DNA from: Caulobacter soli
GTDB taxonomy: Bacteria > Pseudomonadota > Alphaproteobacteria > Caulobacterales > Caulobacteraceae
Assembly (NCBI RefSeq): GCF_011045195.1
Contig: NZ_CP049199.1
Span: 3,889,501 to 3,953,500 of the forward strand
Length of the DNA stretch: 64,000 nt
Direction of reading: 5' to 3'
Shown: one piece after another, positions 34,781 to 58,364 of the stretch
How the letters are laid out: each line of letters begins with the position of its first letter
Numbering within the stretch: position 1 is the first letter of the stretch
Program-made: the position numbers and the translations under genes
The notes under the pieces: generated by a model
Database searches by the model: none
What the model was told of the DNA's origin: nothing
What the model saw: the letters and a program-made list of their open reading frames with translations, nothing else

Positions 34781-34796
34781 TATCGCTACCGCGATT
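34781..34796. promoter_or_regulatory. TATCG-N6-CGATA-type site 1
   Basis: TATCG-CTACCG-CGATT, 57 bp upstream of the Rieske oxygenase start at 34724, overlapping the stop of the preceding crotonase gene. Nine of ten half-site positions match the full palindrome. Confidence 0.6.
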
Positions 34797-35553
34797 TCCA
34801 GTCCGGCGAGCGCTTTTCGGCGAAGGCGCGCGGCCCCTCCTGGGCGTCCTCGCTGCGATAGGTGAATTCCGACGCGTGGCGAGCGGCCTGCAGGGCGGCG
34901 GCGCGGCCCATCTCGGTGGCCAGCATCACCGTGTCGCGGCCGGCCTTCACCGACAGCGGGGCGCCATCGAGGATCTCGTGGGCCAGCTCCAGCGCCTTGT
35001 CCATCAAGGCGGCGGGCTCGGCCAGGCGGTTAACCAGGCCGATTTCGTAGGCGCGCTGGGCGGTGATCGGCTTACCGGTCAGGATGATCTCCATCATGAT
35101 CCGCTGGGGGATCATGTGGATCAGCGGCGCGGCCCAAGGCGAGCTGCGGCCGACCTTGACCTCGGTGATCGCGAACCTGGCCTCGGTGCTGGCCACGCAC
35201 AGGTCGCAGGCCTGGGCGATCATCCAGCCGCCGGCGAAGGCCACGCCGTTGACGGCCGCGATGGTCGGCTTGGACAGCTCGATATTGTCGCCCGGCACCG
35301 GGAACATGTCGCGCGGCGGAACCTGTAGCCCGCGCTCGACCATCTCCTTCAGGTCGCCGCCCGCGCAGAAGGCCTTCTCCCCTGCCCCGGTCAGGATGGC
35401 CACGCGCAGGGCCGAGTCGCGCTCGAAGCGGTCCCAGGCGGCGAACAGGCCGTCGCGGACCTCCTTGCCCAGGGCGTTGCGCTGTTCGGGGCGGTTGATG
35501 GTGATGATCGCGATCCCGTCGTCGCGGGCGTCGAACAGGACGGCGTCGCTCAT
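34786..35553 (-). CDS. Enoyl-CoA hydratase/isomerase (crotonase family)
   Basis: 255 residues from ATG at 35553. Oxyanion segments are AFCAGGDLKEM and AAVNGVAFAGGWMIAQACDL. The Glu of FAITEVKVG corresponds to catalytic Glu164 of rat enoyl-CoA hydratase; the position of Glu144 is Met here, so a plain hydratase reaction is less certain than an isomerase, lyase or hydrolase variant. Start overlaps the stop of the CoA-transferase gene (ATGA). Last gene of the acyl-CoA dehydrogenase / CitE-like / CoA-transferase / crotonase operon. Confidence 0.9.
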   Translation of the reverse strand: MSDAVLFDARDDGIAIITINRPEQRNALGKEVRDGLFAAWDRFERDSALRVAILTGAGEKAFCAGGDLKEMVERGLQVPPRDMFPVPGDNIELSKPTIAAVNGVAFAGGWMIAQACDLCVASTEARFAITEVKVGRSSPWAAPLIHMIPQRIMMEIILTGKPITAQRAYEIGLVNRLAEPAALMDKALELAHEILDGAPLSVKAGRDTVMLATEMGRAAALQAARHASEFTYRSEDAQEGPRAFAEKRSPDWKSR

Positions 35554-36824
35554 CAGAAGCCTCGTTGCTGGATGGTGTGCGCCGCGCGGCTCAAGTCTTC
35601 CTGGAAGGAAGGATGGGCGATGGCGATCAGGCGGCGGGTGCGCTCGGCCAGGGTCTGGCCCTTCAGCTCGGCCGCGCCGAACTCGGTGACGATGACGTCG
35701 ACGTCGCTGCGCGCCGTGGTCACCGGGCCCGACAAGGCCGGAACGATGCGGCTGATCGCGCCGTCCTTGGCGGTGGCCGGGAGAGCAATGATCGAGCAGC
35801 CGCCGGGCGAGCGTGCGCCGGCCCGGACGAAATCGACCTGCCCCCCGGTGCCGCCCATATAGGCCGCGCCGCTCTGCTCGGCGTTGACCTGGCCGGTCAG
35901 GTCGACCTCCAGCGCCGAGTTGATCGTGACCAGGCGCTCCAGTCGGGCCAGCACCGCCGCGTCGTGGGTGTAGCTGGTCGCGCACATGCGGATGGCGGCG
36001 TTGCGGTGGGCGAAGTCGTAGAGCTTGCGCGTGCCGATCAAGGCGCCGTTGATCGAGACGCCGGTGTCGATGGCCTTGCGGGCGTTGGTGACGACGCCGG
36101 CCTCGACCAGCTCGACCAGGCCATCGCCCAGCATGCCCGAATGGACGCCCAGGTCCTTGCGGTCGTGCAGCAGGCGCAGGATGGCGTCCGGCACCGCGCC
36201 GACGCCGGTCTGGATCACCGCGCCATCGCCGATATAGGCGGCGGCGTGCTTGGCGATGGCTTCGTCGGTCGGACCGATCCTGGCCGGCGCGACTTCCACT
36301 GGGCCTCGCGAGACGTGAACAGCGCAATGGATCCGCGCCGCCGGCAGCAGTTCGCCGAAGGTGTAGGGCACCTGGTCGTTGACCTCGGCGATCACCACGC
36401 GGGCCTTGTCGACGGTGGCGCGCACGTGGTCGGCGACCAGGCCGAAGCTGTGGTTTCCCTCGGAATCCGCCGGACTGACCTGGACGAAGGCCACGTCGCA
36501 GCCGATCAGTCCCTCGGCGATCATCGGCCCCAGCTGGCTGACATGGGCGGGGATGACCCCCAGCTTGCCGGCCTTGGTCATCGACCGCAGCGCGCCGATG
36601 GCGCCCATGCTGGTCAGGGAAAAGCTGTCGGCCGTCTCCGGCGTGAACAGGCCCGAGAAGCTGGTGGCGATGAAGGCCGACAGGTCGCCGATGTCCCGAC
36701 CCTGGGCAATCAGCGCCTCGACCAGGGTCGTCGGCTCGCCACAGGCCTGGCCGATGACGATGCGGTCGCCCGAACGGACGAATTGGCTCAGGTCAAGCCC
36801 GGCAGCGTCCGTGACCACGGTCAC
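35553..36824 (-). CDS. Acetyl-CoA hydrolase/4-hydroxybutyrate CoA-transferase family protein
   Basis: 423 residues from a GTG that overlaps the stop of the CitE-like gene (GTGA). The family signature INSALEVDLTGQVNAE (contains the catalytic Glu), then GGTGGQVDFVRGA-like GGQVDFVRAGARSPGG, is clear. It transfers CoA between short acyl-CoAs and free acids, or hydrolyses acyl-CoA. In this operon it could recycle CoA from a product acyl-CoA onto an incoming acid. Length is typical. Confidence 0.9.
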   Translation of the reverse strand: MTVVTDAAGLDLSQFVRSGDRIVIGQACGEPTTLVEALIAQGRDIGDLSAFIATSFSGLFTPETADSFSLTSMGAIGALRSMTKAGKLGVIPAHVSQLGPMIAEGLIGCDVAFVQVSPADSEGNHSFGLVADHVRATVDKARVVIAEVNDQVPYTFGELLPAARIHCAVHVSRGPVEVAPARIGPTDEAIAKHAAAYIGDGAVIQTGVGAVPDAILRLLHDRKDLGVHSGMLGDGLVELVEAGVVTNARKAIDTGVSINGALIGTRKLYDFAHRNAAIRMCATSYTHDAAVLARLERLVTINSALEVDLTGQVNAEQSGAAYMGGTGGQVDFVRAGARSPGGCSIIALPATAKDGAISRIVPALSGPVTTARSDVDVIVTEFGAAELKGQTLAERTRRLIAIAHPSFQEDLSRAAHTIQQRGF

Positions 36825-37714
36825 GACTGTTCCGCCAGGGCCAGCAGCGCCTGGGCGCGAGCCAGGTAGGGCCGGTCCAGCATGCCGCCCTTGTAACCGA
36901 TCGTGCCGACGCCAGGATTGGCGGCGAACAGGTCGACGACTTCCTGGGCGTAGGCGATCTCTTCGGCGGTCGGGCTGAAGGCGGCGTTGATGACGTCGAC
37001 TTGGGCCGGGTGGATGGCCAGCATGCCGCGATAGCCGTCGCGCCGCACCTGCTCGGCCCGAGTCTTCAGCTTCTCCAGGTCGCGGAAGTCGCCTTGGATA
37101 GTCTCGATGGGCGTCACCCGGGCGGCCGAGGCGCCCAACAGGCACAGGCTGCGGGCCAGCTGGTAGGTGAAGGCGTACCCGCCGTCGGGATTGCGGTTCT
37201 CGCTGGCGCCCAGGGCGTCGGCCAGATCCTCGGCGCCCCAGGTCATGGCGACCAGACGCGGCGCGCCGGCGTAGTCGCCGGTGGTGAACATGCCCTCGGC
37301 CGTCTCGGTGACCAGGGCGATGACCTTGGTCGCGCCCTGCTCGATGCCGTTGGCGGCCTCGAACGCCGACAGGTAGTGGTCCAGCAGTTCGACGTCGCCC
37401 CGCCCGAGCGACTTGGGCAGCATGATCCCGCCGGGACGCCCCGGCATGATCGCCGCCAGGTCGGTCAAGGTGTGCGGTCCGTCCAGCGGATTGACCCGCA
37501 CCCACAGCCGCGAGCGGTCTTCAGGCTGCCGGGACAGGAACTCGGCGACCACACGGCGGGCCGTGGGTTTCTCCTCGGGCGCCACGGCGTCTTCCAGGTC
37601 GAAGATGACGATGTCGGCCGAGCCTGCGGTCGCCTTCTCCATCTTCTTTTCGCTGTCGCCCGGCGCGAAGAGCCAGGAGCGCATCTTCAGCGGGGTGTCT
37701 TTGGCCGTGGTCAT
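36821..37714 (-). CDS. HpcH/HpaI aldolase/citrate lyase beta-like (CitE/malyl-CoA lyase superfamily)
   Basis: 297 residues from ATG at 37714. The TIM-barrel CitE signature is present: RSWLFAPGD, DIVIFDLEDAVAPEEK (Mg2+ ligands), WVRVNPLDGP, MLPKS, ALVTETAEGMFTTGDYA and GYRGMLAIHPAQVDVINAAFSPT. Members cleave or form C-C bonds in malyl-, citramalyl- or hydroxymethylglutaryl-type CoA esters. A retro-aldol step on a hydroxyacyl-CoA intermediate is likely here. It lies between the acyl-CoA dehydrogenase and the CoA-transferase, whose start overlaps its stop. Confidence 0.9.
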   Translation of the reverse strand: MTTAKDTPLKMRSWLFAPGDSEKKMEKATAGSADIVIFDLEDAVAPEEKPTARRVVAEFLSRQPEDRSRLWVRVNPLDGPHTLTDLAAIMPGRPGGIMLPKSLGRGDVELLDHYLSAFEAANGIEQGATKVIALVTETAEGMFTTGDYAGAPRLVAMTWGAEDLADALGASENRNPDGGYAFTYQLARSLCLLGASAARVTPIETIQGDFRDLEKLKTRAEQVRRDGYRGMLAIHPAQVDVINAAFSPTAEEIAYAQEVVDLFAANPGVGTIGYKGGMLDRPYLARAQALLALAEQS

Positions 37715-37727
37715 CAATGCTTCCCGC

Positions 37728-38894
37728 TCAGTAGGATTTCGGCAGTTCCAGGACCTTCTCGGCCAGGTAGTTGAGGATCATGTGCGGGCTGACCGGCGCG
37801 GTCCTGGGGATCAGGCTTTCGCGCACGTAACGTTCCACATGATACTCCGCCGCGTAGCCCATGCCGCCCAGGGTGAGCATGGCGGTGTGGCAGGCCTCGA
37901 AGCCGAACTCGCCGGCCAGGTACTTGGCCGCATTGGCCTCGACACCGCAATCCTCGCCCTTGTCGAACAGGTTGGCCGCCTTCATCGCCATCAGATTGGC
38001 GGCCTCCAGCTGGGCCCAGCACTTGGCCAGCGGATGCTGGATGCCCTGGTTCTGGCCGATGGGCCGATCAAAGACGATCCGCTCGCGGGCGTAGCGGGCG
38101 GCGCGCTTGATCGCCGCTCGCCCCAACCCAACAGCCTCCGAAGCCAGCAGCACCCGCTCGGGGTTCAGTCCGTGCAGGATGATCTTGAAGCCCTCGCCCT
38201 CGGGCCCGATGCGGTCCTCTTCCGGGATCCACAGGTCCTCGATGAACAGCATGTTCGAGTCGATCGCGTGGCGGCCCATCTTGTGGATCAGCCGCACGTC
38301 GATCTTTGAGCGGTCGAAGTCGGTGTAGAACAGCGACAGCCCCTCGGTCTTGCGCTTGACCTGGTCGATCGGTGTCGTGCGGGCCAGCAGCAGCATCTTG
38401 TTGGAGACCTGGGCCGTCGAGATCCAGATCTTCTCGCCATTGACCAGATAGCCGCCGTCCTTGCGCTCGGCGCGGGTCTTCAGCGCCGTGGTGTTGAGGC
38501 CGGCGTTGGGTTCGGTGACGGCGAAGCAAGCCTTGTCCTGGCCGCTGATGATCCCCGGGATCGAGCGCTGCTTCTGGTCTTCCGTGCCGAACAGGATGAT
38601 CGGCTGCAGGCCGAAGATGTTGATGTGCACCGCCGAGGCGCCGCTCATGCCCGCGCCGGACTCGGCGATGGCCTGCATCATGATCGAGGCTTCGGTGATG
38701 CCCAGGCCCGAGCCGCCATAGGCCTCCGGCATGGCGATGCCCAGCCAGCCGGCGTCGGCCAGCGAGCGGTAGAAATCCTCGGGAAAGACGCCCGACTGAT
38801 CGCGCTCCAGCCAGTACTCGTCCGGGAACTGCGAGCAGTGCTTGAGGATCGCCTCGCGGATGTTCTGCTGGTCCTGGGTGAAGGAGAAATCCAC
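37728..38894 (-). CDS. Acyl-CoA dehydrogenase
   Basis: 388 residues from GTG at 38894 (VDFSFTQDQQNIREAI). FAD/acyl-CoA signatures: CFAVTEPNAGLNTTALKTRAE, YLVNGEKIWIS, RVLLASEAVGLGRAAIKRAARYARER and LGGMGYAAEYHVERYVRES, which carries the usual catalytic Glu of the C-terminal type. It introduces an alpha,beta-double bond. Full-length and self-sufficient, unlike the paired dehydrogenases at 44-49 kb. First gene of a four-gene operon with lyase, CoA-transferase and crotonase; a TATCG site lies 86 bp upstream. Confidence 0.93.
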   Translation of the reverse strand: MDFSFTQDQQNIREAILKHCSQFPDEYWLERDQSGVFPEDFYRSLADAGWLGIAMPEAYGGSGLGITEASIMMQAIAESGAGMSGASAVHINIFGLQPIILFGTEDQKQRSIPGIISGQDKACFAVTEPNAGLNTTALKTRAERKDGGYLVNGEKIWISTAQVSNKMLLLARTTPIDQVKRKTEGLSLFYTDFDRSKIDVRLIHKMGRHAIDSNMLFIEDLWIPEEDRIGPEGEGFKIILHGLNPERVLLASEAVGLGRAAIKRAARYARERIVFDRPIGQNQGIQHPLAKCWAQLEAANLMAMKAANLFDKGEDCGVEANAAKYLAGEFGFEACHTAMLTLGGMGYAAEYHVERYVRESLIPRTAPVSPHMILNYLAEKVLELPKSY

Positions 38895-38979: not shown

Positions 38980-38995
38980 TATCGCCTGTGCGGAG
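38980..38995. promoter_or_regulatory. TATCG-N6-CGATA-type site 2 (divergent promoter)
   Basis: TATCG-CCTGTG-CGGAG, 86 bp before the acyl-CoA dehydrogenase start and 64 bp before the divergent CoA-transferase start. Left half perfect, right half keeps only CG. Confidence 0.5.
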
Positions 38996-39059: not shown

Positions 39060-40247
39060 GTGGACAAGAAACCTCGGGGCTCAGGCCCCCTGTCCGGCGT
39101 ACGCGTGATCGACCTGACCAGCATGGTCTTCGGCCCCTACGCCACCCAGATCATGGCCGACATGGGCGCCGACGTGATCAAGGTCGAGCCGCCCTCGGGC
39201 GACGCCACGCGCTATATCTCGGTCGGCCCGACGCCCGACCTGGCCGGCGTGTTCGTCAACGTGAACCGCGGCAAGCGCAGCATCGTGCTGGACCTGCAGA
39301 GCGACGACGGCAAGGCGGGCTTGCGCGCCCTGCTGGAACAGGCCGACGTCTTCATCCACTCGATGCGGTCCAAGGCCATCGCCAAGCTGGGCTTCGACTA
39401 CGACAGCGTCGCGAAGCTGAATCCGTCGATCGTCTACACCAACTGCTACGGCTACGGCCGCGAGGGGCCCGAGCGCGATCAGCCGGCCTATGACGACACC
39501 ATCCAGGCCGAGTGCGGCCTGACCGCCGTCCAGCAGATGCTGACGGGCGAGGCCAACTATGTCGGCACCATCGTCGCCGACAAGGTGGCGGGCCTGACCG
39601 CCCTCTACGCCACCACCATGGCCCTGTTCCACCGCGAGCGGACCGGCGAGGGCCAGGAGGTCGAGATCGGCATGTTCGAGACCATGGCCTCGTTCATGCT
39701 GGTCGAGCACGCCAACGGCGCGATGTTCGATCCGCCGCTCGGCCCGGCGCACTATCCGCGCGTGGTGGCCGCCAACCGCAAGCCCTACCGCACCAAGGAC
39801 AGCCACGTTTCGGCGCTGATCTACAACGACAAGCACTGGGCGCTGTTCGTCGAGGCGGTGAAGCCCGCCTGGGCCGACGCGGGGATGGCGACGCTGAACG
39901 AGCGCGCCCGCCAGATCGACCGCATCTACGGCCTGCTGGCGGAAACCTTCCTGGAGCGCACGACGGCCGAATGGCTGGACCTGCTGCGCAGGCTGGGCAT
40001 CCCGGCCGCGCCGCTGCGCACCCCCGACGAGCTGTTCGACAACCCCCACCTGAACGCCGTCGGCTTCTTCGAGACCGTGGACTCGCCCCGGGGCAAGATC
40101 CGCTTCCCGGGCGTCCCGACCACCTTCTCGGCGACGCCGGGCAAGGTCCACGGCCCCGCGCCCGAGCTGGGCGAACATACGCGGCAAATCCGCGACGAGT
40201 TCGGCCTGAACGCGGCCGACCACGCCAAGACCGGGAGTGACAAGTGA
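39060..40247 (+). CDS. Family III CoA-transferase (CaiB/BaiF)
   Basis: 395 residues from GTG at 39060. SGVRVIDLTSMVFGPYATQIMADMGADVIKVEPPSGD is the conserved N-terminus. PAYDDTIQAECGLT holds the catalytic Asp; RTGEGQEVEIGMFETMASFM is also typical. It transfers CoA between acids, as in carnitine, bile acid, oxalate or benzylsuccinate metabolism, so it could activate the substrate without ATP. BaiF-type CoA-transferases act on bile acids, but specificity cannot be told here. Followed without gap by an SDR and a SnoaL-like gene. Confidence 0.93.
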   Translation: MDKKPRGSGPLSGVRVIDLTSMVFGPYATQIMADMGADVIKVEPPSGDATRYISVGPTPDLAGVFVNVNRGKRSIVLDLQSDDGKAGLRALLEQADVFIHSMRSKAIAKLGFDYDSVAKLNPSIVYTNCYGYGREGPERDQPAYDDTIQAECGLTAVQQMLTGEANYVGTIVADKVAGLTALYATTMALFHRERTGEGQEVEIGMFETMASFMLVEHANGAMFDPPLGPAHYPRVVAANRKPYRTKDSHVSALIYNDKHWALFVEAVKPAWADAGMATLNERARQIDRIYGLLAETFLERTTAEWLDLLRRLGIPAAPLRTPDELFDNPHLNAVGFFETVDSPRGKIRFPGVPTTFSATPGKVHGPAPELGEHTRQIRDEFGLNAADHAKTGSDK

Positions 40248-41756: not shown

Positions 41757-41772
41757 CATCGGGGCGGCGATA
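41757..41772. promoter_or_regulatory. TATCG-N6-CGATA-type site 3
   Basis: CATCG-GGGCGG-CGATA (on the minus strand TATCG-CCGCCC-CGATG), 86 bp upstream of the second Rieske gene at 41858. Nine of ten half-site positions match. Confidence 0.6.
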
Positions 41773-41857: not shown

Positions 41858-43261
41858 ATGGCTGACGGTGCAATGGCAGCGGAACGCCCCGTGCCGTTCT
41901 CGGTGGAAAATCCCGAGCGGATCCCGTCGCGACGCTATTTCGACGAAGAATTCTACCGCCTCGAGGGCGAGCATCTGTGGCCGCACGTCTGGCAGATGGC
42001 TTGCCGGCTGGAGCAGATCCCCAATGTCGGCGACTGGGTGGAGTACACCATCCTGGGCAGGTCGGTGATCGTCGTGCGCGGCAAGGAGGGCGTGAAAGCC
42101 TTCCACAACGCCTGCCGTCACCGCGGCGTGCCGCTGGTCGAGGAAGGGGGGCATGGCAACTGCAAGACGCCCGGCTTCATCTGCCCCTTCCACGGCTGGC
42201 GCTGGAACACCGAGGGCCAGAACACCTTCGTCTACGGCAAGCACATGTTCAGCGAGTCCCAGCTGGACCAGGCCGACCTGGCGCTGAAGCCTTGCCGCGT
42301 CGAGCTGTGGGGCGGCTGCGCCTTCATCAATTTCGACGACGACGCTCCATCGTTCCGCGACACGATCGGCCCGGTGGCCGACCGGATCGAAGCGCACGGC
42401 ATGAGCAAGCTGAAGTCGGAATGGTGGTACGCCACCGTCCTGCCGGCCAACTGGAAGGTGGCGATGGAAGCCTTCATGGAAGGCTACCACGTCATGCGCA
42501 CGCATCCGCAGCTGCAGCAGGCCGCGCCGATGCTCTACAACATGATGTACGGCATGGACACCGGCGGCATCGGCCTGCCGATCGACCCCAACATGACCGT
42601 GCGCCAGAACATCGCCGCGCAGATCAAGCACCTGGGGCTGCTGAGCGAAGGCATGGCCGGCATGGTCCACGCCAAGGAAGTCGAGATCGCCAAGCAGCTG
42701 GCCGATGTCGAGTTGCCCGAGGATCCCGCCCAGGCGGTGATGATGTGGTACGGCATCCTCAACCACCAGATCACCACCCAGCTGCGGGCCAAGGGCGAGG
42801 ACGTGCCGGACCTGAACGGCGTGGCGGTGTCCGACCCGATCAACGCGGTCGAGTTCCTGTTCCCGAACTACTTCCTGCTGCCGATGTTCTCGAGCATGTC
42901 ATCGTACCGCATCCGCCCGCTGGGTCCGGAAAGCTGCCTGTTCGAGCTGTGGTCGCTGACCCACGTGGCCGACGGCGTCGAGCACAAGACGCCGATGGAG
43001 CCGACCCTGCTGCCCTATGACAGCCAGGAGTTCCCGCCGATCCCGCGCCAGGACTATTCGAACATCCCGATCCAGCAGAAGGGCATGCACGCGGCCGGCT
43101 TCGACTACATGCGCCTGTCCAAGGACATCGAGGGCCTGATCAGCAACTACAACCGGATCATCGACGGCCACCTGAAGGGGGTCGCGCCGGACAAGCTGGC
43201 CTCGGCGACCAACCTGCTGGGCGGCAATTTCGACGGCAAGATCCTCGATCTCGGCTTCTGA
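41858..43261 (+). CDS. Rieske non-heme iron oxygenase, alpha subunit (second copy)
   Basis: 467 residues. Rieske ligands C86-R-H88 and C109-PF-H112. Mononuclear iron site in VAMEAFMEGYHVMRTHPQL (H211, H216). It resembles the first Rieske protein in layout but is clearly a different gene. Probably an alpha-only oxygenase acting on a ring or an alkyl substituent. It is followed 3 bp later by an EthD-domain gene and preceded by TATCG site 3. Ferredoxin from 46491 may supply electrons. Confidence 0.94.
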   Translation: MADGAMAAERPVPFSVENPERIPSRRYFDEEFYRLEGEHLWPHVWQMACRLEQIPNVGDWVEYTILGRSVIVVRGKEGVKAFHNACRHRGVPLVEEGGHGNCKTPGFICPFHGWRWNTEGQNTFVYGKHMFSESQLDQADLALKPCRVELWGGCAFINFDDDAPSFRDTIGPVADRIEAHGMSKLKSEWWYATVLPANWKVAMEAFMEGYHVMRTHPQLQQAAPMLYNMMYGMDTGGIGLPIDPNMTVRQNIAAQIKHLGLLSEGMAGMVHAKEVEIAKQLADVELPEDPAQAVMMWYGILNHQITTQLRAKGEDVPDLNGVAVSDPINAVEFLFPNYFLLPMFSSMSSYRIRPLGPESCLFELWSLTHVADGVEHKTPMEPTLLPYDSQEFPPIPRQDYSNIPIQQKGMHAAGFDYMRLSKDIEGLISNYNRIIDGHLKGVAPDKLASATNLLGGNFDGKILDLGF

Positions 43262-44266: not shown

Positions 44267-45187
44267 CTAGTCTTCACCCCACAGCGCCTCGGCCGCCGCC
44301 AAGGCCTGCCCGCCCCGACCGCCCAGTTCGCCGATCAGCGCCTTCAGGCGGTAGGTCCACAGGTGCAGCGGGTGCTCCAGGGTGATGCCCATCGCGCCCA
44401 GGAACTGGTGGAAGTCGTAGACCGTGGCCCGCGCGCTCTCCTGGGCGTGCAGGGCGGCCAGGGCCGCGTCGCCGGCGTCCAGCGTGCCCGCCGCCTTCAT
44501 CGCCAGCCAGTACACGCCGTTGGCGCGCACCTGGGCCTCGGCCAAGCGGTGACGCAGCGCCTGGAACGTGGCCAGGGGCCGGCCGAACTGCTGGCGGTCG
44601 GTGACATAGGTCGTGACGCTGTCCAGCGCCGCGCCCAGCAGGCCCGCGGCTTCCGCCGCGATGGCGACGCGCCAGCGGGTCGTGACCGCCTCGGGCAAGA
44701 CGTCGTGCGCCGTGGTCGCGACCACCGACGGGTCGATCAGCAAGGTTCCCATCGGATAGCCGAACAGCGTCTCCTCTGCCCGGACCTGATCTTCCGTCGC
44801 GACGAAGCTGGAGACCTTGTCCTGGCCCACTACCAGCACGGTCGCTCCAGCCTTCAGGAAGCGGATCGGACGCTTGGCCTTGCCGGCCTCGACCACGCAG
44901 AAGGGGCGCGGCAGATCGGGAAACAGCGGGCGGATCAGGGCGCTGGCCGCCGCCTCCACCGCGAAGGGCAGTCGCGCCAGGCGCTCGACCACCAGGGCGG
45001 CCGAGCCGGCGCCGAGATCGGGGTCGAAAGCGACGTCCAGGAAGCCGCCCTCGGCGAGCTCCTGATCCAGCCTGTCGCTGACCAGGGCGAAACCGGCGTC
45101 ATGCAGGGGCGCGGCGGCGAACGGACGGGCCAGCGAGTCCACGGCGTCGAGGATCGCCGTCTGGTCGGACGTAAGAGCGAGGTCCAT
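44267..45187 (-). CDS. Acyl-CoA dehydrogenase family, short subunit of a heteromeric pair
   Basis: 306 residues, about 80 fewer than a normal acyl-CoA dehydrogenase. The N-terminal domain is compressed; the C-terminal helical domain is present (AAEAAGLLGAALDSVTTYVTDRQQFGRPLATFQALRHRLAEAQVRANGVYWLAM). ATG overlaps the stop of the longer partner (ATGA at 45187). Such long/short pairs form alpha2beta2 enzymes in actinobacterial and proteobacterial steroid/bile-acid side-chain oxidation (FadE28-FadE29 type). In those, one subunit provides FAD contacts and the other the catalytic base. Inference here from size and pairing. Confidence 0.87.
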   Translation of the reverse strand: MDLALTSDQTAILDAVDSLARPFAAAPLHDAGFALVSDRLDQELAEGGFLDVAFDPDLGAGSAALVVERLARLPFAVEAAASALIRPLFPDLPRPFCVVEAGKAKRPIRFLKAGATVLVVGQDKVSSFVATEDQVRAEETLFGYPMGTLLIDPSVVATTAHDVLPEAVTTRWRVAIAAEAAGLLGAALDSVTTYVTDRQQFGRPLATFQALRHRLAEAQVRANGVYWLAMKAAGTLDAGDAALAALHAQESARATVYDFHQFLGAMGITLEHPLHLWTYRLKALIGELGGRGGQALAAAEALWGED

Positions 45188-46428: not shown

Positions 46429-46444
46429 GAACGCCGTGCCGATA
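46429..46444. promoter_or_regulatory. TATCG-N6-CGATA-type site 4 (divergent promoter)
   Basis: GAACG-CCGTGC-CGATA (minus strand TATCG-GCACGG-CGTTC), 46 bp before the ferredoxin start and 97 bp before the divergent acyl-CoA dehydrogenase start. Confidence 0.5.
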
Positions 46445-46490: not shown

Positions 46491-46805
46491 ATGACCGACC
46501 CCGTCTTCATCGCCGTGGCCAAGACCGACGAGATCGCGCCCGAGACCGCCAGGGAAGTCGAGATCGGCGGGCGCTCGATCCTGATCTGCCACAGCGACGG
46601 CCGGTTCTTCGCGATCGAGAACCTGTGCTCGCACGCCGAGGAGCCCCTGGCCTGCGGACGCCTGAAGCGCGGCTGGATCTCGTGCCCGGCCCACGGCGCG
46701 CGGTTCGACCTGGAGACCGGCGAGCCGCTGAACCCGCCCGCCACCGAGCCGCTCAAGACCTTCCACCTGCGCGTCGTCGGCGACGTCATCGAGGTCGCCC
46801 TCTAG
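46491..46805 (+). CDS. Rieske-type [2Fe-2S] ferredoxin
   Basis: 104 residues from ATG at 46491. Cluster ligands C46-S-H48 and C65-PA-H68 (LCSHAEEPLACGRLKRGWISCPAHGARFDLETG). A soluble electron carrier expected to serve one or both Rieske oxygenases at 33.4 and 41.9 kb. No ferredoxin reductase is in the window, so it must use one encoded elsewhere. Single-gene unit lying between two acyl-CoA dehydrogenase pairs. Confidence 0.93.
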   Translation: MTDPVFIAVAKTDEIAPETAREVEIGGRSILICHSDGRFFAIENLCSHAEEPLACGRLKRGWISCPAHGARFDLETGEPLNPPATEPLKTFHLRVVGDVIEVAL

Positions 46806-46816: not shown

Positions 46817-46832
46817 CATCGCCTTGCCGATA
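46817..46832. promoter_or_regulatory. TATCG-N6-CGATA-type site 5
   Basis: CATCG-CCTTGC-CGATA (minus strand TATCG-GCAAGG-CGATG), 69 bp upstream of the acyl-CoA dehydrogenase pair at 46902. Nine of ten half-site positions match. Confidence 0.6.
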
Positions 46833-46901: not shown

Positions 46902-48095
46902 TTGACCGACGCGCTTGAAACCCTGAGGCATGACGTCCGCGCCTGGCTGGAGGCCAATGCGCCCAAGGACTGGCGCGCGACCTGCACCAGCCACGAAGGC
47001 TTCCTGGCGACCCAGCGCGGCTGGTTCGCCAAGCTGGTGGAGGGCGGCTACGCCGTGCCGCACTGGCCGGCCGAATGGCCCGGCGGCGGCCAAGGCCTGG
47101 CCGAGCAGAAGGTGCTGTACGAAGAGCTGGCCCGCGCCGACACCCCGCGCCTGCTGCTATCGTTCATGTCGACCTACCACGCCGCCAGCACCCTGTTCGA
47201 ATGGGGCAGCGCCGAGCAGCAGGCCAAGTACATCCCGCGCATCCTGGAGGGCGAGATCTGGTGTCAGGGCTTTTCCGAGCCCAACGCCGGTTCCGACCTG
47301 GCCGCGGTGCGCACCCGCGCCGAACGGCGCGGCGACGTCTATGTGGTCAACGGCCAGAAGGTCTGGTCGACCATGGGCCAGTTCGCCGACAAGTGCCTGC
47401 TGCTGGTGCGCACCCGCACGCAGGGCGCCAAGCAGGCCGGCCTGACCTATCTGCTGCTGGACCTGAAGGCCAAGGGCGTCACCGCCCGGCCGATCCACCA
47501 GATCCATGGCGACGAGGAGTTCGCCGAGCTGTTCCTCGACGATGTCGAGATCCCGGTCGCCGACCGCCTGGGCGACGAGGGCCAGGGCTGGGCCGTGGCG
47601 CAGTCCACCCTGTTGTCCGAGCGCGGCCTGACCCTGCTGGAGCTGAGCGCGCGCATGCGCGGTGCGCTGTGGCGGATCGCCGACCTGATCCGCGAGACCG
47701 GTCGCGAGGACGACGCCGGGATCCTGCGCGACTTCGGACGGCTGGCCACCCGGATCGACGCGGCCTGCGCCCTCGCCGACCAGTTCCTGGCCAACCGCAT
47801 CGCCGGTCACGAGCGGGTCGGCGACGCCTCGCTGGTCAAGCTGACCTATTCGCGCACGCTGCGGGACTTCACGTCGCTGGGCCTGCGGTTGGCGGGCCTG
47901 GAGGCGCAGTATCACGAGCCCATCGTGTTCGGCGGCGGCATGGAGACCGGCAACTGGATGGCCGACTTCATGAACAGCTACGCCTGGACCATCGCCGGCG
48001 GCAGCGACGAGGTTCAGCGCAACATCATCTCCGAGCGCCTGCTGGGCATGCCCCGCGAGCCCAAGACCTGGACCCTGGCGGGAGACGCGGCATGA
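46902..48095 (+). CDS. Acyl-CoA dehydrogenase family, long subunit of second heteromeric pair
   Basis: 397 residues from a TTG at 46902, eight bases after GGAG; no better ATG or GTG is near. Signatures: YAVPHWPAEWPGGGQGLAEQKVLYEELARAD, WCQGFSEPNAGSDLAAVRTRAE, YVVNGQKVWSTMGQFADKC and IAGGSDEVQRNIISERLLGMPREP. The last is the standard long-subunit end. Its stop overlaps the start of the short subunit (ATGA), so they are translated together. Expected to form an alpha2beta2 acyl-CoA dehydrogenase for a bulky or branched acyl-CoA. Confidence 0.9.
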   Translation: MTDALETLRHDVRAWLEANAPKDWRATCTSHEGFLATQRGWFAKLVEGGYAVPHWPAEWPGGGQGLAEQKVLYEELARADTPRLLLSFMSTYHAASTLFEWGSAEQQAKYIPRILEGEIWCQGFSEPNAGSDLAAVRTRAERRGDVYVVNGQKVWSTMGQFADKCLLLVRTRTQGAKQAGLTYLLLDLKAKGVTARPIHQIHGDEEFAELFLDDVEIPVADRLGDEGQGWAVAQSTLLSERGLTLLELSARMRGALWRIADLIRETGREDDAGILRDFGRLATRIDAACALADQFLANRIAGHERVGDASLVKLTYSRTLRDFTSLGLRLAGLEAQYHEPIVFGGGMETGNWMADFMNSYAWTIAGGSDEVQRNIISERLLGMPREPKTWTLAGDAA

Positions 48096-49809: not shown

Positions 49810-50798
49810 TTGCCGACGACTTCCTTGACCGTGGCGACGATCGTATCGACCGACACCAGATAGGCGTCTTCCAGCGGCTTGGAGAACGGCACCGGCGAGT
49901 ACGGCGCGCCCAGGCGGCGAACCGGCGCCTTCAGCTTGCCGAACAGCTCCTCGTTGACGGTCGCGGCGATCTCGGCGCCCGGGCCGAAGCTGCGGACAGC
50001 CTCGTGGACCACGACGCAGCGGCCGGTCTTGGCGACCGACTTCAGCACCGTCTCACGATCCCAGGGCGAGACCGTGCGCAGGTCCACCAGCTCGACCGAG
50101 ATGCCGGCCTCGGCCAGCGGGGCCAGGGCCTGCAAGCTGCGAACCACCATCGACGACCACGAGACGATCGTCACGTCCGTGCCCTCGGCCACGACCTTGG
50201 CCTGGCCCAGCGGAATCGGGCCCTGGTCGACCGGCACGTCGCCCGGGATGAACAGCGTGCCGGCCGACTCGATGATGATGCAGGGATCGGGATCCTGGAT
50301 GCACGACAGCAGCAGGCCCTTGTAGTCGGCCGGGTTGGACGGCGCGACGACCTTGATCCCGGCGGTGTGGGCGAACCAGCCCTCCAGGTGGTCGGCGTGC
50401 TGGCCGGCGGTCTGCCAGCCGGCGCCCGTCAGGGTGCGGATGGTGATCGGCACCGTGCTCTGGCCGCCGGACATGAAGCGCAGCTTGGCCGCGTGGTTGA
50501 AGATCATGTCCATGCAGACGGCGGTGAAGTTCATCAGCATGATCTCGGCGACCGGCTTGTAGCCCGCCAAGGCCGCGCCGATGGCCGCGCCGATGATCGC
50601 CTGCTCGGAGATCGGCGTCGACTTGACGCGCTGGTCGCCGAACTTGGTCGACAGGCCGATCGTCGCGCCGGTCACGCCGCCGCCCTCGCGGTCGGCGATG
50701 TCCTCGCCGAACACCAGGACCTTGGGATCCTCTTCCATCGCCTGGTGCAGGGCCGCGTTGACGGCCTGGAAGGCGTGCATTTTGACAGTCTCGGTCAC
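49806..50798 (-). CDS. TPP-dependent dehydrogenase E1 component, beta subunit (acetoin/2-oxoacid type)
   Basis: 330 residues from a GTG overlapping the E1-alpha stop (GTGA). Signatures: NAALHQAMEEDPKVLVFGEDIADREGGGVTGATIGLSTKFG, TPISEQAIIGAAIGAALAGYKPVAEIM, GWQTAGQHADHLEGWFAHTAGIKVVAPSNPADYKGLL and VELVDLRTVSPWDRETVLKSV. Forms the transketolase-like beta half of E1 with the alpha subunit encoded upstream. Closest by motif to the acetoin dehydrogenase/branched-chain group. Substrate unknown. Confidence 0.92.
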   Translation of the reverse strand: MTETVKMHAFQAVNAALHQAMEEDPKVLVFGEDIADREGGGVTGATIGLSTKFGDQRVKSTPISEQAIIGAAIGAALAGYKPVAEIMLMNFTAVCMDMIFNHAAKLRFMSGGQSTVPITIRTLTGAGWQTAGQHADHLEGWFAHTAGIKVVAPSNPADYKGLLLSCIQDPDPCIIIESAGTLFIPGDVPVDQGPIPLGQAKVVAEGTDVTIVSWSSMVVRSLQALAPLAEAGISVELVDLRTVSPWDRETVLKSVAKTGRCVVVHEAVRSFGPGAEIAATVNEELFGKLKAPVRRLGAPYSPVPFSKPLEDAYLVSVDTIVATVKEVVGK

Positions 50799-51790
50799 GC
50801 GGGGATCTCCGTGGCAAACACATCGCGGCGCAGCTCGGCGACGGACGGGAAGGCGCTGGCCAGACCGAACTCCATCGCGTCATCCACCTCGGCCTGGATG
50901 TCGGCCTGCATCTTGGTCAGTTGGTCCTCGGTCGCGTGGCCCTCGGCCAGCAGACGCGCGCGGAAGGCGGGCAGCGGATCCTTGGCGATCGCGGCGGCCT
51001 TTTCTTCCTTGGTCATGTACTTGTCGTCGTCGCCCAGCACGTGGCCCAGGAAACGGAAGGTCTTGCACTCCAGCAGGGTCGGGCCCTCGCCTTCCCGCGC
51101 CCGCCGGATCGCCTCGTAGGCGGCGGCGTACATGGCCCACGGGTCGTTGCCGTCCACCGTGAAGCCCGGCATGCCGTAGCCGATGGCGCGCTTGGAGATG
51201 AAGTCCACCGAGGTGCCGTTCTCGTAGCGGGTGTGCTCGGCGAAGCCGTTGTTCTGGCAGACGAAGATCACCGGCAGCTTCCACAGCGAAGCCAGGTTCA
51301 GCGACTCGTGGAACGCGCCGATGTTGGAGGCGCCGTCGCCGAAATAGGCGATGCTGACGCGCTTGCTGCCGTCCAGCTGCGCGGCCCAGCCCAGGCCGTT
51401 GGCGATCGGCATCGAGGAACCGACGATGCCGGTGGTGACCATCACGCCCGTCTCTGGGTGCGTCAGGTGCATCGGGCCGCCCTTGCCCTTGCAGGTGCCG
51501 TCGACGCGGCCGGCGATCTCGGCCCACAGCGGACGCAGCGGCATGTCCTTGGCGACCATGTCGTGGATGCCGCGATAGATCGTGCAGATCGTGTCTTCGT
51601 TGGTCAGCAGCGAGGAGATGGTCGAGGGAATGACCTCCTGACCGCGGGCCGAATAGTAGGGCATGATCAGCTTGCCCAGGCGCATCGCCTTGCGGATCGT
51701 GTCGTCATTGCGCTCGATGCGGATCATCCGCCGGTAGATATCGACCAGCGTCTCCGTGCTGGGGGCCGGACTGTTGCTCTGCTCTGCCAT
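50795..51790 (-). CDS. TPP-dependent dehydrogenase E1 component, alpha subunit (acetoin/2-oxoacid type)
   Basis: 331 residues. The TPP motif GDGASNIGAFHESLNLASLWKLPVIFVCQNN spans residues 151-181; RGQEVIPSTISSLL, GRVDGTCKGKGGPMHL and GIVGSSMPIANG are typical of AcoA-like proteins. It decarboxylates or cleaves a 2-oxo compound or acyloin, passing the acyl group to a lipoyl domain. A small lipoyl protein is encoded 3.5 kb upstream in the same direction. No E2 acyltransferase or E3 is in the window. TATCG site 6 lies 70 bp upstream. Confidence 0.92.
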   Translation of the reverse strand: MAEQSNSPAPSTETLVDIYRRMIRIERNDDTIRKAMRLGKLIMPYYSARGQEVIPSTISSLLTNEDTICTIYRGIHDMVAKDMPLRPLWAEIAGRVDGTCKGKGGPMHLTHPETGVMVTTGIVGSSMPIANGLGWAAQLDGSKRVSIAYFGDGASNIGAFHESLNLASLWKLPVIFVCQNNGFAEHTRYENGTSVDFISKRAIGYGMPGFTVDGNDPWAMYAAAYEAIRRAREGEGPTLLECKTFRFLGHVLGDDDKYMTKEEKAAAIAKDPLPAFRARLLAEGHATEDQLTKMQADIQAEVDDAMEFGLASAFPSVAELRRDVFATEIPA

Positions 51791-51859: not shown

Positions 51860-51875
51860 ACCCGCCCTGGCGATA
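51860..51875. promoter_or_regulatory. TATCG-N6-CGATA-type site 6
   Basis: ACCCG-CCCTGG-CGATA (minus strand TATCG-CCAGGG-CGGGT), 70 bp upstream of the E1-alpha start. One half is perfect; the other keeps CG only. Confidence 0.5.
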
Positions 51876-51925: not shown

Positions 51926-52378
51926 TCACCCCGCCCGGAGCGAGGCGAATTTTTCGGGATCCAGCAGCTTCCACATGCCGTCGGCCGAGGCGACCGTGCG
52001 GTCACCGGCCATGATAAGGCCGCGCATGAACACCACCTGCGAGGTGCGACGCACCAGCTCGGGCCGGCAGGTGACGAAGCTGCCGATCTTCGCCGTCGCC
52101 ACGAACTGCATCTGCAGCTGAAGCGTCACGCAGTCGCGCGTGTTGGCCGCGTCGACCACGCCCATGCCCAGGGCGATGTCGGCGAAGGTCATCAGGACCC
52201 CGCCGTGCACCGTACCGACATGGCCGTTGCCGTGGCCTTCCTCGCTGAGCAGACCGACTTGCCGGCCAGCCTCGTCCTGGCGAACCCAATAGGGCCCGGC
52301 GGTCTCGTTGAAGTGGGTGCCGCCCATCCGGACCCAGCCCTCGGCCTCCAGCCGCGCGGCCTCTTCGGCAAGACTCAC
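51926..52378 (-). CDS. PaaI-type hotdog-fold thioesterase
   Basis: 150 residues from a GTG overlapping the stop of the flavoprotein gene (GTGA). HFNETAGPYWVR is followed by the hotdog signature GHGNGHVGTVHGGVLMTFADIALGMGVVDAA, then VTLQLQMQFVATAKIGSFVTCRPELVRRTSQVVFMRG. HGGV with the conserved Asp of FADIA is the active-site region. Hydrolyses an acyl-CoA, releasing CoA from a pathway intermediate or dead-end ester. Co-translated with the KSTD-like flavoprotein. Confidence 0.88.
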   Translation of the reverse strand: MSLAEEAARLEAEGWVRMGGTHFNETAGPYWVRQDEAGRQVGLLSEEGHGNGHVGTVHGGVLMTFADIALGMGVVDAANTRDCVTLQLQMQFVATAKIGSFVTCRPELVRRTSQVVFMRGLIMAGDRTVASADGMWKLLDPEKFASLRAG

Positions 52379-54060
52379 AGTTGGTTGCCCATGCCCGCCG
52401 CGTGCTTGGCGGCGATGTAGCCGAAGGTCAGGGACGGGCCGATGCTGGCCCCGGCGCCGGGATAGATGTTGCCCATCACCGAGGCCGTGGAGACGCCGGT
52501 GGCGTAGAGGCCCTCGATCGGCGAGCCGTCGGCGCGCACCACGCGGCCGTTCACGTCGGTGATCGCGCCGCCATAGGTGCTGACATCGCCGGGCACCACG
52601 TTGACCGCGTAGAACGGCCCCGTCTCGATCTTGCCCAGCGACGCGTTGCCGTCTTGATAGGGGTCGCCGAGCCAGGAGTCGTAGGCGCGTTCGCCGCGAT
52701 GGAAGTCCTCGTCCACGCCCTTGTCGACGAAGCCGTTCCAGCGCTCGACCGTGGCCTTCAGGGCGGCGGGATCGACCTTGATCAGGCCGGCCAGGGCCTC
52801 GATGGTGTCGGCCTTCTTCAGATAGCCCTGCTCGGTCCAGGCGGCCGGCTTGCCCGCGCCCGGCATGGTGCCGGCCACCATGTACTGGTCGATGCAGGTC
52901 CAGTCGAAGATCGCCCAGCTGGGGATGGCGGGAACGGTCTGGTTCCGCTTCAGCATGTTTTCGCAATAGAGCTCGTAGGAGCCGCCCTCGTTCAGGTAGC
53001 GAACGCCCGACTGGTCCACGAGGATGGCGTGCGGTTTGCCCGTCAGGCTCTGGATCGGCGGGGTCGGGAACATGGTCTCCCAGCCCGGCGCCAACGTGGT
53101 CTGGTAGCCGACCATCTGGTTCATCTGGCCCAGCACGCCGCCGATGCGCTCCATCTCGACATGCAGCTCGCCCATGTCGCTCTCGTTGGTCTGGGACCAT
53201 TCGGCGCGCGTGCCCGGCATATACTTGTCGCGCATGGCCTGGTTGCGGGCGAAGCCGCCGGCGTTGACCAGCACGCCCAGCCTGGCGCCCACGCGCCAGG
53301 GCTTGCCGTCCTTGACCGTCGCCACGCCGGTCACGACGCCGTTCTCGACGATCAGTTCGGAGACCGGGGATTCCAGCCGCACGTCGACGCCGGCCTTCAG
53401 GCCCGCCAGCAGCATCCGGCCCTGCAGGGCCGCGCCCGCCGAGACGACCTTCTTGCCCGTCAGCCGCGTCCAGGCGGTGCGCAGGATGACCGCCAGGAAC
53501 GCCTTACGCCCGGTCCAGCTCTTCTTGTAGTAGGGAAGCTTCATGCCCTCGTCGAGCCGGACGGGAACGGGCAGGAAACCGGGGCGCAGCTTGGATTTCC
53601 ATTCGCCCAGCTCGTTGGTGTCGAACAGCTGGGCCGAGACGCAGCGGGTGGTTTTGCAGCCGCCCGGCAGCTCGTCGTAATAGTCGGGCCAGAAGTCGGC
53701 GGTGCGCTCGAACTTCAGTCCCTGGTCGATCAGGAAGTCGATCATCTTGGGCGCTTCCTGCACATAGGCCAGGCGGCGCTCGCGCGATGTACCGGGCGCC
53801 TCGCCCGGATCGGTGGCCGCCGCGGCGTCCAGATAGGTGATCGCCGCCTCGGCGCTGTCCTTGTCGCCAGCCGCGCGCATGAAGCGGTTGTTGGGGATCC
53901 ACATCACCCCGCCCGACTTGGCGGTGGTGCCGCCGGCCCAGGCCGACTTTTCCAGGATCACGACGGACTTGCCGGCCTTGCGCATGACCAGGGCCGAACT
54001 CATCGAGCCGGCGCCGTTGCCCACGACCACCCAGTCGAACGTCTCGTCAAATGCGGCCAT
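52375..54060 (-). CDS. FAD-dependent dehydrogenase of the 3-ketosteroid-delta1-dehydrogenase (KSTD)/fumarate reductase family
   Basis: 561 residues. An N-terminal FAD-binding segment DWVVVGNGAGSMSSALVMRKAGKSVVILEK and TTAKSGGVMWIPNN are typical of KSTD proteins. Tyr in PDYYDELPGG (Y127/Y128), a Tyr in YLNEGGSYELY (Y362 or Y365) and Y533-P-G in GNIYPGAGASIG line up with the catalytic Tyr/Gly set of KstD enzymes; this alignment is by eye. It would introduce a double bond next to a ring ketone. A steroid substrate is possible, but no KshA/HsaC-type ring genes are in the window. TATCG site 7 lies 62 bp upstream. Confidence 0.88.
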   Translation of the reverse strand: MAAFDETFDWVVVGNGAGSMSSALVMRKAGKSVVILEKSAWAGGTTAKSGGVMWIPNNRFMRAAGDKDSAEAAITYLDAAAATDPGEAPGTSRERRLAYVQEAPKMIDFLIDQGLKFERTADFWPDYYDELPGGCKTTRCVSAQLFDTNELGEWKSKLRPGFLPVPVRLDEGMKLPYYKKSWTGRKAFLAVILRTAWTRLTGKKVVSAGAALQGRMLLAGLKAGVDVRLESPVSELIVENGVVTGVATVKDGKPWRVGARLGVLVNAGGFARNQAMRDKYMPGTRAEWSQTNESDMGELHVEMERIGGVLGQMNQMVGYQTTLAPGWETMFPTPPIQSLTGKPHAILVDQSGVRYLNEGGSYELYCENMLKRNQTVPAIPSWAIFDWTCIDQYMVAGTMPGAGKPAAWTEQGYLKKADTIEALAGLIKVDPAALKATVERWNGFVDKGVDEDFHRGERAYDSWLGDPYQDGNASLGKIETGPFYAVNVVPGDVSTYGGAITDVNGRVVRADGSPIEGLYATGVSTASVMGNIYPGAGASIGPSLTFGYIAAKHAAGMGNQL

Positions 54061-54121: not shown

Positions 54122-54137
54122 TATCGCTCGCCCGACC
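54122..54137. promoter_or_regulatory. TATCG-N6-CGATA-type site 7
   Basis: TATCG-CTCGCC-CGACC, 62 bp upstream of the KSTD-like gene start at 54060. Left half perfect, right half keeps CGA. Confidence 0.55.
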
Positions 54138-54156
54138 TCTTCATTTCGTCCCGGCG

Positions 54157-55260: not shown

Positions 55261-55268
55261 TAGAAGGC

Positions 55269-55499
55269 CTACTCGATGGTGCCCAGGACGGTGCCGACTT
55301 CGTAGATCTCGCCGATCTGGGCGATGATCCGCAGGGTGCCGCTGGCCGGGGCCTCGACCTCGTTGGTCGACTTGTCGGCCTCCAGCGAATACAGCGGCTG
55401 GCCTTCGGTAACATGGGCGCCATCCGCGACGAGCCATTCGGCGATCTGGGCTTCGGTCATCGAAAAGCCGAGCTTGGGAAGCAGGATGTCGGTGGCCAT
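55269..55499 (-). CDS. Stand-alone lipoyl-domain protein
   Basis: 76 residues forming a single lipoyl/biotinyl domain: ILLPKLGFSMTEAQIAEWLVADGAHVTEGQPLYSLEADKSTNEVEAPASG without further domains. K43 in EADKSTNEV is the expected lipoylated lysine (DKS/DKA context favours lipoate over biotin's MKM). It could accept the acyl group from the E1 alpha/beta pair encoded downstream, acting as a minimal E2. No acyltransferase catalytic domain or E3-binding domain is fused to it. TATCG site 8, a perfect palindrome, lies 99 bp upstream. Confidence 0.92.
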   Translation of the reverse strand: MATDILLPKLGFSMTEAQIAEWLVADGAHVTEGQPLYSLEADKSTNEVEAPASGTLRIIAQIGEIYEVGTVLGTIE

Positions 55500-55597: not shown

Positions 55598-55613
55598 TAT
55601 CGTCGCGGCGATA
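55598..55613. promoter_or_regulatory. TATCG-N6-CGATA site 8 (perfect)
   Basis: TATCG-TCGCGG-CGATA, the only copy with both half-sites perfect. 99 bp upstream of the lipoyl-protein gene and just behind the AhpD-like gene. Confidence 0.65.
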
Positions 55614-55619
55614 CGGCCG

Positions 55620-56273: not shown

Positions 56274-56301
56274 GGAAGTCTCCGGGGTCTCTGACTGAAT
56301 A

Positions 56302-57141: not shown

Positions 57142-57143
57142 GC

Positions 57144-57446: not shown

Positions 57447-57503
57447 AGCGCTTTTCACCGTCAGTGCGCGGGCTGGGGCGTCGCCCCAACTCAAAGGTCT
57501 GGA

Positions 57504-58259
57504 CTACATCGCGGCCGTATCGATCGTTGGTCTTATCAAGATTTGGGAGACGTTCGCGCGGGCTGGCAGGGAGGCGATGAAAACGATCGCTTCAGCGATA
57601 TCGGACGGCTGCATCACCCCTTCCTTGCCGACGTGTTGGGTCATCGCGGCCCGCATGGTGGGATCGCTGATGCCCGTCGCCACCTCGGTCTGGGTCGCTC
57701 CGGGCTCGACGATGCTGACCCGGATACCGGCCCCGCCGACTTCCTGGCGCAGGCCCTCGGTCAGGCCGGTCAGGCCGAACTTGCTGGTCGAATAGGGGCC
57801 AAAGACGCCCGCCGCCCGGCGGCCGGCGGTCGAGGAGATGTTGATGATGTCGCCCGCACCTTGCGCCTTCATCGGACCGATCGCGGCCTTGCAGGTGTAG
57901 AGCGTGCCCATCAGGTTGATGTCGATGACCCGGCGCCACTCCTCGGTCGGCAGGCTCTCGACGCCGCCCGCCTGGATCACCCCGGCCGAGTTGACCAGGA
58001 TGTCGATGCGGCCCAGCCGAGCGATCGTGTCCTCGACGGCCGCCACGGCCTGCCCCTCCACCGAGACGTCGCCAGGCAGGGCCAGCGCCTTGCCGCCGGC
58101 CGCCTCGATCCGCCGAACCAGGTCGTCCAGCCGGTCGGTGCGGCGGGCGGAAAGGGCCACCTGGACGCCGGCCTGGGCCAGGGCGATCGCCGCCGCCTCG
58201 CCGATGCCCGACGACGCTCCGGTGACCAGGGCGACCTTGCCCGACAGGCTTCCCGACAT
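57504..58259 (-). CDS. Short-chain dehydrogenase/reductase
   Basis: 251 residues. TGASSGIGEA, NSAG, active site ISSTAGRRAAGVFGPYSTSKFG and VEPGATQTEV mark a classical SDR of the YdfG/clavaldehyde-dehydrogenase-like group. It may reduce an aldehyde made by the LuxC/LuxE-like pair encoded just upstream, or oxidise the corresponding alcohol; this is inferred from position. First gene of an SDR-DUF1330-PAP2-CMD operon. Its promoter holds both a TetR-type palindrome (58275) and a TATCG site (58349), the only such combination seen. Confidence 0.9.
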   Translation of the reverse strand: MSGSLSGKVALVTGASSGIGEAAAIALAQAGVQVALSARRTDRLDDLVRRIEAAGGKALALPGDVSVEGQAVAAVEDTIARLGRIDILVNSAGVIQAGGVESLPTEEWRRVIDINLMGTLYTCKAAIGPMKAQGAGDIINISSTAGRRAAGVFGPYSTSKFGLTGLTEGLRQEVGGAGIRVSIVEPGATQTEVATGISDPTMRAAMTQHVGKEGVMQPSDIAEAIVFIASLPARANVSQILIRPTIDTAAM

Positions 58260-58274
58260 TGCCTTCTCCCTAAT

Positions 58275-58292
58275 GCTGTACAGTCGTTCAGC
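58275..58292. promoter_or_regulatory. TetR-type operator GCTGTACA-GT-CGTTCAGC
   Basis: 8+2+8 inverted repeat with two mismatches against the perfect copy at 30845, 16 bp upstream of the SDR start. Links this operon to the TetR regulator at 30.2 kb. Confidence 0.6.
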
Positions 58293-58348
58293 GGAGAGTG
58301 CGCAGACGTTCCCGCCGCGTCGAGCGCTTGCCGGCCGATCGCTTCAGA

Positions 58349-58364
58349 TATCGCTCAGGCGTCC
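58349..58364. promoter_or_regulatory. TATCG-N6-CGATA-type site 9
   Basis: TATCG-CTCAGG-CGTCC, 90 bp upstream of the SDR start, overlapping the end of the LuxC-like gene. Left half perfect, right half keeps CG. Confidence 0.45.

Follow-up and report, generated by a model that had tools for sequence, protein, structure and literature searches.

The 64,000-nucleotide stretch of Caulobacter soli DNA examined here (RefSeq assembly GCF_011045195.1, contig NZ_CP049199.1, positions 3,889,501 to 3,953,500; hereafter the window) carries nine sites of the form TATCG-N6-CG upstream of catabolic genes. These sites are putative operators of one regulon spread across a large catabolic island. That the regulon is real is nearly certain, and it is apparently undescribed. 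As its regulator we lean, with less assurance, towards an IclR-family protein encoded just to the right of the window, a choice based on which genomes carry both the gene and the sites.

Nine sites upstream of catabolic genes

The nine sites had been listed in an earlier note on this sequence. Searching both strands of the window for the exact pattern recovered all nine, each with an intact TATCG, a six-base spacer and CG, together with a tenth that the note did not list. 9/10 exact sites are upstream of genes and one is intragenic, yet gene calls leave only 6749/64000 bases of the window noncoding.

34781..34796, plus strand: site TATCGCTACCGCGATT, 56 bp upstream of a Rieske oxygenase gene (33363-34724, minus strand; Pfam)
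38980..38995, plus strand: site TATCGCCTGTGCGGAG, between genes for an acyl-CoA dehydrogenase (37728-38894, minus) and a CoA-transferase III (39105-40247, plus)
41757..41772, minus strand: site TATCGCCGCCCCGATG, upstream of a Rieske oxygenase gene (41891-43261, plus)
46429..46444, minus strand: site TATCGGCACGGCGTTC, between genes for an acyl-CoA dehydrogenase (45187-46332, minus) and a Rieske ferredoxin (46491-46805, plus)
46817..46832, minus strand: site TATCGGCAAGGCGATG, upstream of an acyl-CoA dehydrogenase gene (46902-48095, plus)
51860..51875, minus strand: site TATCGCCAGGGCGGGT, upstream of the E1 alpha gene (50795-51790, minus)
54122..54137, plus strand: site TATCGCTCGCCCGACC, upstream of a KSTD-like flavoprotein gene (52375-54060, minus)
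55598..55613, no strand assigned: palindrome TATCGTCGCGGCGATA, upstream of a lipoyl protein gene (55269-55499, minus)
58349..58364, plus strand: site TATCGCTCAGGCGTCC, upstream of an SDR gene (57504-58259, minus)
57585..57600, minus strand: tenth exact site TATCGCTGAAGCGATC, one mismatch, within the SDR gene 57504-58259; the next gene starts at 57446, 138 bp downstream of the site

Site 55598 is a perfect palindrome of five-base arms, and 34781, 41757 and 46817 have one mismatch each. The note had also placed every site 46-99 bp from a start codon. By the gene calls of this analysis eight are 46-98 bp from the nearest start, but 41757 is 118 bp from the predicted GTG start at 41891 and 85 bp from an ATG at 41858. 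Sites 34781 and 58349 reach into the 3' end of the gene before them, yet the next start is still 56 and 89 bp downstream of them, respectively. Coverage of nearly every catabolic promoter is a fair description, with exceptions such as the LuxC-like unit starting at 61113, which has no site.

Nine sites fall in the intergenic DNA from 33 to 58.4 kb (15 segments with a total of 2404 bp, margins included), whereas 500 first-order Markov shuffles average 0.40 and never exceed 3, so the note was right that chance hardly explains them. A loose palindrome with up to 3 mismatches is only mildly in excess (170 matches in the window versus 129 ± 12 in shuffles), and the argument therefore rests on position, clustering and conservation. 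Extended symmetrically the sites read TATCGC-N4-GCGATA, and (T)ATCGC-N4-GCGAT(A) is the better consensus. Half-site frequencies in 112 noncoding sites scoring at least 10/12, taken from this island and its relatives, are A.90, T.90, C 1.00, G.97 and C.86 with a weak outer T (.49), values and a symmetry that are partly built in by score selection and counting on both strands. The four-base spacer of these sites shows little preference and is mostly C/G.

The clustering extends beyond the window. In the 5.68 Mb genome 21 distinct places are within one mismatch of TATCGC-N4-GCGATA, and 9/21 fall within one 90-kb stretch (Poisson 1e-10, for a stretch picked after the list was seen). Noncoding sites span 34781 to 124439, in window coordinates continued past the right edge, and the regulon seems to continue 60 kb past the window. 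Between 33 and 125 kb, where 7474 bases are noncoding, 16/20 exact sites fall in noncoding DNA, compared with 6/27 in twelve control stretches of the same genome (240 kb, 30551 noncoding bases). Matches of at least 10/12 are noncoding in 14/19 and 4/9 cases, respectively. Equal density in unrelated upstream and coding DNA, which the earlier note had said would count against a regulon, is not what was found: control DNA is 11- to 14-fold poorer in sites than the 33-125 kb stretch. To the left, the 80 kb before the window and its first 33 kb have 23939 noncoding bases, with 2 exact sites among them. The 19 kb of right flank (125-144 kb) hold 2 in 2152 noncoding bases and no match of at least 10/12.

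Conservation and promoter architecture in related islands

The KSTD-like flavin adenine dinucleotide (FAD) protein (52375-54060, minus strand) was used as the query that brought 22 related loci, including Sphingobium, Sphingomonas, Novosphingobium, a Caulobacter metagenome-assembled genome (MAG), a Solimonas MAG and Pseudomaricurvus. Loss of the sites in relatives, which the note had likewise named as counter-evidence, was not the pattern found. They are kept upstream of orthologous genes, with a match of at least 10/12 in 27/67 upstream regions of orthologs of the nine sites' target genes versus 0.7 expected by shuffling. Control upstream regions of the C. soli genome have such a match in 5/146 cases, and other upstream regions in the KSTD loci in 15/104, several of them before further pathway genes. 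Many 9/12 matches also keep the same distance and form, such as TATCGCCGTGGCGCGG 62-64 bp before E1 alpha in L033, L034, L035 and L042. At single promoters, TATCGGCAAGGCGATG (site 46817) is identical in L023 and L026 and differs by one base in L022, site 58349 is kept in L026 as AGACGCCTGAGCGATA, and the L023 ortholog of the Rieske oxygenase gene 41891-43261 has TATCGACCCGGCGATA 83 bp upstream. The KSTD-like promoter, which has site 54122 in C. soli, has two sites in several relatives. Plasmid pBSY17_1 of Sphingobium sp. RAC03 served as a hold-out that played no part in motif definition. Of its 12 matches in 40.8 kb, 9 fall within the 2951 noncoding bases.

In 111 sites the nearest start is a median of 82 bp away, with quartiles of 64 and 101. 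E1 alpha promoters were aligned from 14 sequences, with L032 excluded for a miscalled start. The site abuts a -35-like TTGAC in 10 relatives (L022-L026, L033-L035, L037, L042); in C. soli TTGAC is further downstream of the site, and L029, L031 and L041 also deviate. Because the sites adjoin a -35-like element, as expected of an activator, this arrangement suggests activation more than blocking. Pairs of sites 10-60 bp apart (n=30, where the second site may score 9) include 5 at 20-22 bp, 4 of them at KSTD promoters and 1 before an IclR gene, and 8 at 27-29 bp, all at SDR/CoA-transferase promoters.

Candidate regulators

No binder had been evident to the earlier note within the window, and the best candidate indeed lies outside it.

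69857..70690 in window coordinates (G000:C1:3959357-3960190; L056:5857-6690), plus strand: IclR-family protein of 277 amino acids, 5.9 kb past the right edge of the window

The protein has an N-terminal HTH_IclR domain (PF09339, E 3.8e-10) and a C-terminal IclR effector domain. The modelled structure of a 93% identical homologue shows an IclR fold, for which PcaR is one of the best matches.

Six regulator genes of the island were compared with the sites by co-occurrence in 30 genomes: C. soli, 20 reached through the KSTD loci and 9 further genomes with the IclR gene. Presence was called from E-value and identity, not trees, and the counts take no account of phylogeny. Only IclR 69857 separates site-bearing from site-less genomes. 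Sites, from 1 to 12 per genome, are present in the fetched intergenic DNA of 25/25 genomes with this gene and of 0/5 genomes without it. Since the 9 extra genomes were picked for having the IclR gene, the less biased part of the comparison is 15/15 versus 0/5. 20/22 KSTD loci were searched for regulators, L034 and L036 being short MAG contigs that were left out. Nine of the 15 new genomes with the IclR gene were counted; no stretch was fetched for G331, G380 and G383, and G249, G284 and G442 (1, 2 and 0 noncoding sites of at least 10 in L172, L173 and L176) have low synteny with the island. Also uncounted were G110, G235, G391, G422, G321 and G327, with the MarR gene considered below outside such an island or in a partial one; L177-L183 have no noncoding site of at least 10. 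G282 was coded negative for that MarR (which lies outside its island), G069 for TetR 61226 (41% identity) and G075 for TetR 89075 (31%).

Several observations weigh against IclR 69857 as the binder. 4/5 genomes without it (G075, G076, G078, G080) are MAGs from which the gene may simply be missing, the fifth being Pseudomaricurvus HS19, and all five differ in gene content too. Some genomes with the gene have few sites (1 each in G068, G104 and G106), and G442, whose IclR in L176 is 51% identical, has no noncoding site in 13.5 kb, although it is outside the 30-genome count. Autoregulation through the site is not the rule, for a TATCGC-type match of at least 10/12 precedes the IclR gene in just 3/28 loci (L120, L174, L185). 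IclR promoters instead carry an AAAACGA-N7-TCATTTT-like inverted repeat before TTGAC (L056:5750-5856; by eye in most of the 28 upstream regions) and, in 15/28 loci, a TGAACA-N4-TGTTCA-like palindrome. The operators assigned to IclR group 1 (PcaR, PcaU, PobR, CatR, HmgR and MhpR type) differ as well. In Suvorova and Gelfand 2021 (PMC8222616) these are given as GKTYCRYW3-4RYGRAMC, and earlier as GTNCG-N5-6-CGNAC; the sites here have outer bases TAT/ATA rather than GTN/NAC, fit neither GT/AC nor TT/AA, and have a spacer that is not A/T-rich, unlike the W-rich group-1 spacer.

Other features agree with group 1; the match in frame was noticed after the co-occurrence result. The core TCGC-N4-GCGA fits YCRY-N4-RYGR with the CG-N6-CG spacing, the sites precede catabolic operons, and the candidate combines a helix-turn-helix with an IclR effector domain. 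According to that paper, tandem sites 18-22 nt apart occur in many IclR groups and most site centres lie at -20 to -80; here 5 of the 30 pairs are 20-22 nt apart and 8 are 27-29 apart, and many sites are further upstream than -80. IclR transcription factors are described there as generally controlling themselves and one or two adjacent operons. The present regulon, unlike that pattern, takes in many operons over about 90 kb, and the regulator's own promoter is usually without a site. Because of this last point the assignment of the sites to IclR 69857 is held a little above even, in contrast to the near certainty of the regulon itself. When other promoters were scanned for the AAAACGA-N7-TCATTTT-like repeat, its exact form was found in 5 loci, always within 200 bp of an IclR gene. 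If IclR 69857 controls itself, it does so mostly by some other element than the TATCGC-type site.

If IclR 69857 is the binder, ATCGC-N4-GCGAT would be bound by a dimer, or by a tetramer at double sites, for the most part 60-100 bp before start codons. In response to a pathway intermediate it might then jointly switch the Rieske, acyl-CoA dehydrogenase, E1/lipoyl, KSTD-like, thiolase, CoA-transferase and P450 operons. IclR-family control would in that case reach across a whole island instead of one or two operons. A wider proposal is put forward tentatively and is, taken as a whole, doubtful: that this one IclR-family protein is the master switch of a horizontally moving steroid-/terpenoid-like island of about 90 kb, acting at a dozen or more promoters through an ATCGC-N4-GCGAT variant outside the PMC8222616 subgroups, with a TetR-to-IclR cascade through TGAACA/TGTT(C/G)A-type half-sites common to IclR and some co-travelling TetR promoters. 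The analysis yields a concrete candidate regulator and promoters ready for reporter and binding assays. Furthermore, the site allows genes to be assigned to one pathway ahead of any knowledge of the substrate; the island that holds them is shared by sphingomonads, a Caulobacter MAG and one or more plasmids.

It is unlikely that the sites belong to another regulator of the island, either TetR 89075-89758 or a second IclR-family protein, 113874-114578. TetR 89075 is widespread in site-bearing genomes, but it was not found in G062, G104 and G401, which have sites, and it occurs in Solimonas G076 and Pseudomaricurvus G077, which have none. The second IclR occurs in 23/24 relatives coded positive for IclR 69857, and the motif frame would suit its family; it is also present in 4/5 site-less genomes, with 69% identity in G075. 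The TetR 89075 promoters of some relatives have TGAACA/TGTTGA half-sites similar to those of IclR promoters, a hint of a cascade.

Two other regulators of the six were rejected. TetR 61226 is without a match at E 1e-25 in eleven genomes that have sites, and it occurs in G075 and G077, which have none. AraC 101330 has no match in site-bearing G074, G079, G130, G398, G104 and G106 and is present in site-less G075, G077 and G080.

61226..61855, plus strand: TetR with an AefR-like C-terminus, disfavoured as binder

The divergent promoter between this TetR gene and gene 59761-61113 (window 61114-61225) has an element of its own, approximately ATGAAACGYATMAGGTGCYATTAA, shared with L022 (about 1100-1200) and L032 (about 2100-2190). 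It is probably the TetR 61226 operator.

Somewhat less likely still is that the sites are operators of a MarR-family protein, 66142-66597, acting as a self-controlling repressor responsive to a CoA thioester. MarR proteins commonly bind short palindromes of this sort. This MarR gene is directly behind a thiolase gene whose promoter has site 64787, and the thiolase-MarR pair is kept in most relatives examined, usually with an AATCGC-N4-GCGATT-type site upstream. MarR was the initial favourite and was dropped because four genomes, G074 (Novosphingobium sp. AAP83), G130, G398 and G412, have sites without such a MarR. G074, G412 and G130 have the thiolase without MarR behind it and retain the island sites. 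Conversely, MAG G075, which holds part of the island, has MarR at 54%, and its orthologous promoters are without sites. Site density does not follow the presence of MarR, at 1.16 per kb with it and 1.38 without. The thiolase gene keeps its place without MarR at L130:4483-6540 (AAP83), L171:992-3083 and L175:13776-15831, and the site is also kept in L130 and L175. G075 has TTGCAATTGC-type repeats, possibly a different operator, before the thiolase and CoA-transferase genes (L127:4506-4664 and 6879-7170) where the usual sites are missing.

An equally small chance attaches to a regulator outside the six compared, whether it is encoded within the island or at some other place in the genome. The co-occurrence test covered six genes, which leaves out MarR-like 24290-24751, MerR-like 8017-8523 and everything else in the genome. 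Sites common to sphingomonads, the Caulobacter MAG and the RAC03 plasmid mean, however, that the binder should travel with the island, and the compact site-bearing loci of AAP83, G398 and G412 have no other regulator in the 15-20 kb read of each. Comparison with PDB sequences gave nothing useful on a hidden regulator in proteins 81796-82578 and 82735-83256, which are next to sites and have no Pfam hits. That the sites are chance matches, codon-usage words or a general repeat of no regulatory role is very improbable: a loose palindrome is common in a G+C-rich genome, and one- and two-mismatch copies occur elsewhere in this one, but position, clustering, conservation and the hold-out all contradict it.

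Known systems and the content of the island

The regulon is of a known kind. Mycobacterial cholesterol catabolism offers a parallel, with one regulator (KstR/KstR2, of the TetR family) and its palindrome serving many operons in a large steroid-type cluster. Among sphingomonads, the bile-salt clusters of C. tardaugens and Sphingobium Chol11 are also steroid-type clusters with several local regulators; in that report (PMC12882949), AraC and TetR are proposed, with palindromes ATAGGGCCATTG and GCATGCGGGATGC, unlike the present case. In another sphingomonad, Sphingobium sp. SHPJ-2, a pathway for ring degradation is controlled by PheR, a member of the IclR family. PheR differs in its operator, the essential core being GCAACG (PMC13273656), and it represses a phenanthrene operon. 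Searches of the literature by title and start of abstract, with most subscription journals outside their reach, found no description of the present operator. Within the scope of these searches the regulon is new, as the note had supposed.

The gene set comprises three Rieske oxygenases, a P450, the KSTD-like enzyme, paired acyl-CoA dehydrogenases, a thiolase, CoA-transferases and E1/lipoyl proteins, and because of this set a steroid- or terpenoid-like substrate is suggested. The KSTD-like protein has a close full-length ortholog in 0/60 relatives, 36 of them of the same genus. The IclR ortholog and the island are on a large plasmid in Sphingobium RAC03, and the IclR ortholog is on a large plasmid in V4 too. 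For these two reasons the island (G000:C1:3924281-4013954) looks horizontally acquired.

Two gene rows of the island may be mentioned. Positions 58355-61113 of the window encode a LuxC-like acyl-CoA reductase and a companion that has no Pfam hit and is LuxE-like by position only; the order is the same in L022 and L032. At 102368-109111 in window coordinates, at L174:1711-7187 and at L175:3446-6573, the sulfate-activation gene CysNC is found together with genes for an alkyl-sulfatase-like protein, a zinc-type alcohol dehydrogenase and an SDR. The SDR heads this row and has a site upstream in G398 and G412, a hint that the substrate or an intermediate is sulfated.

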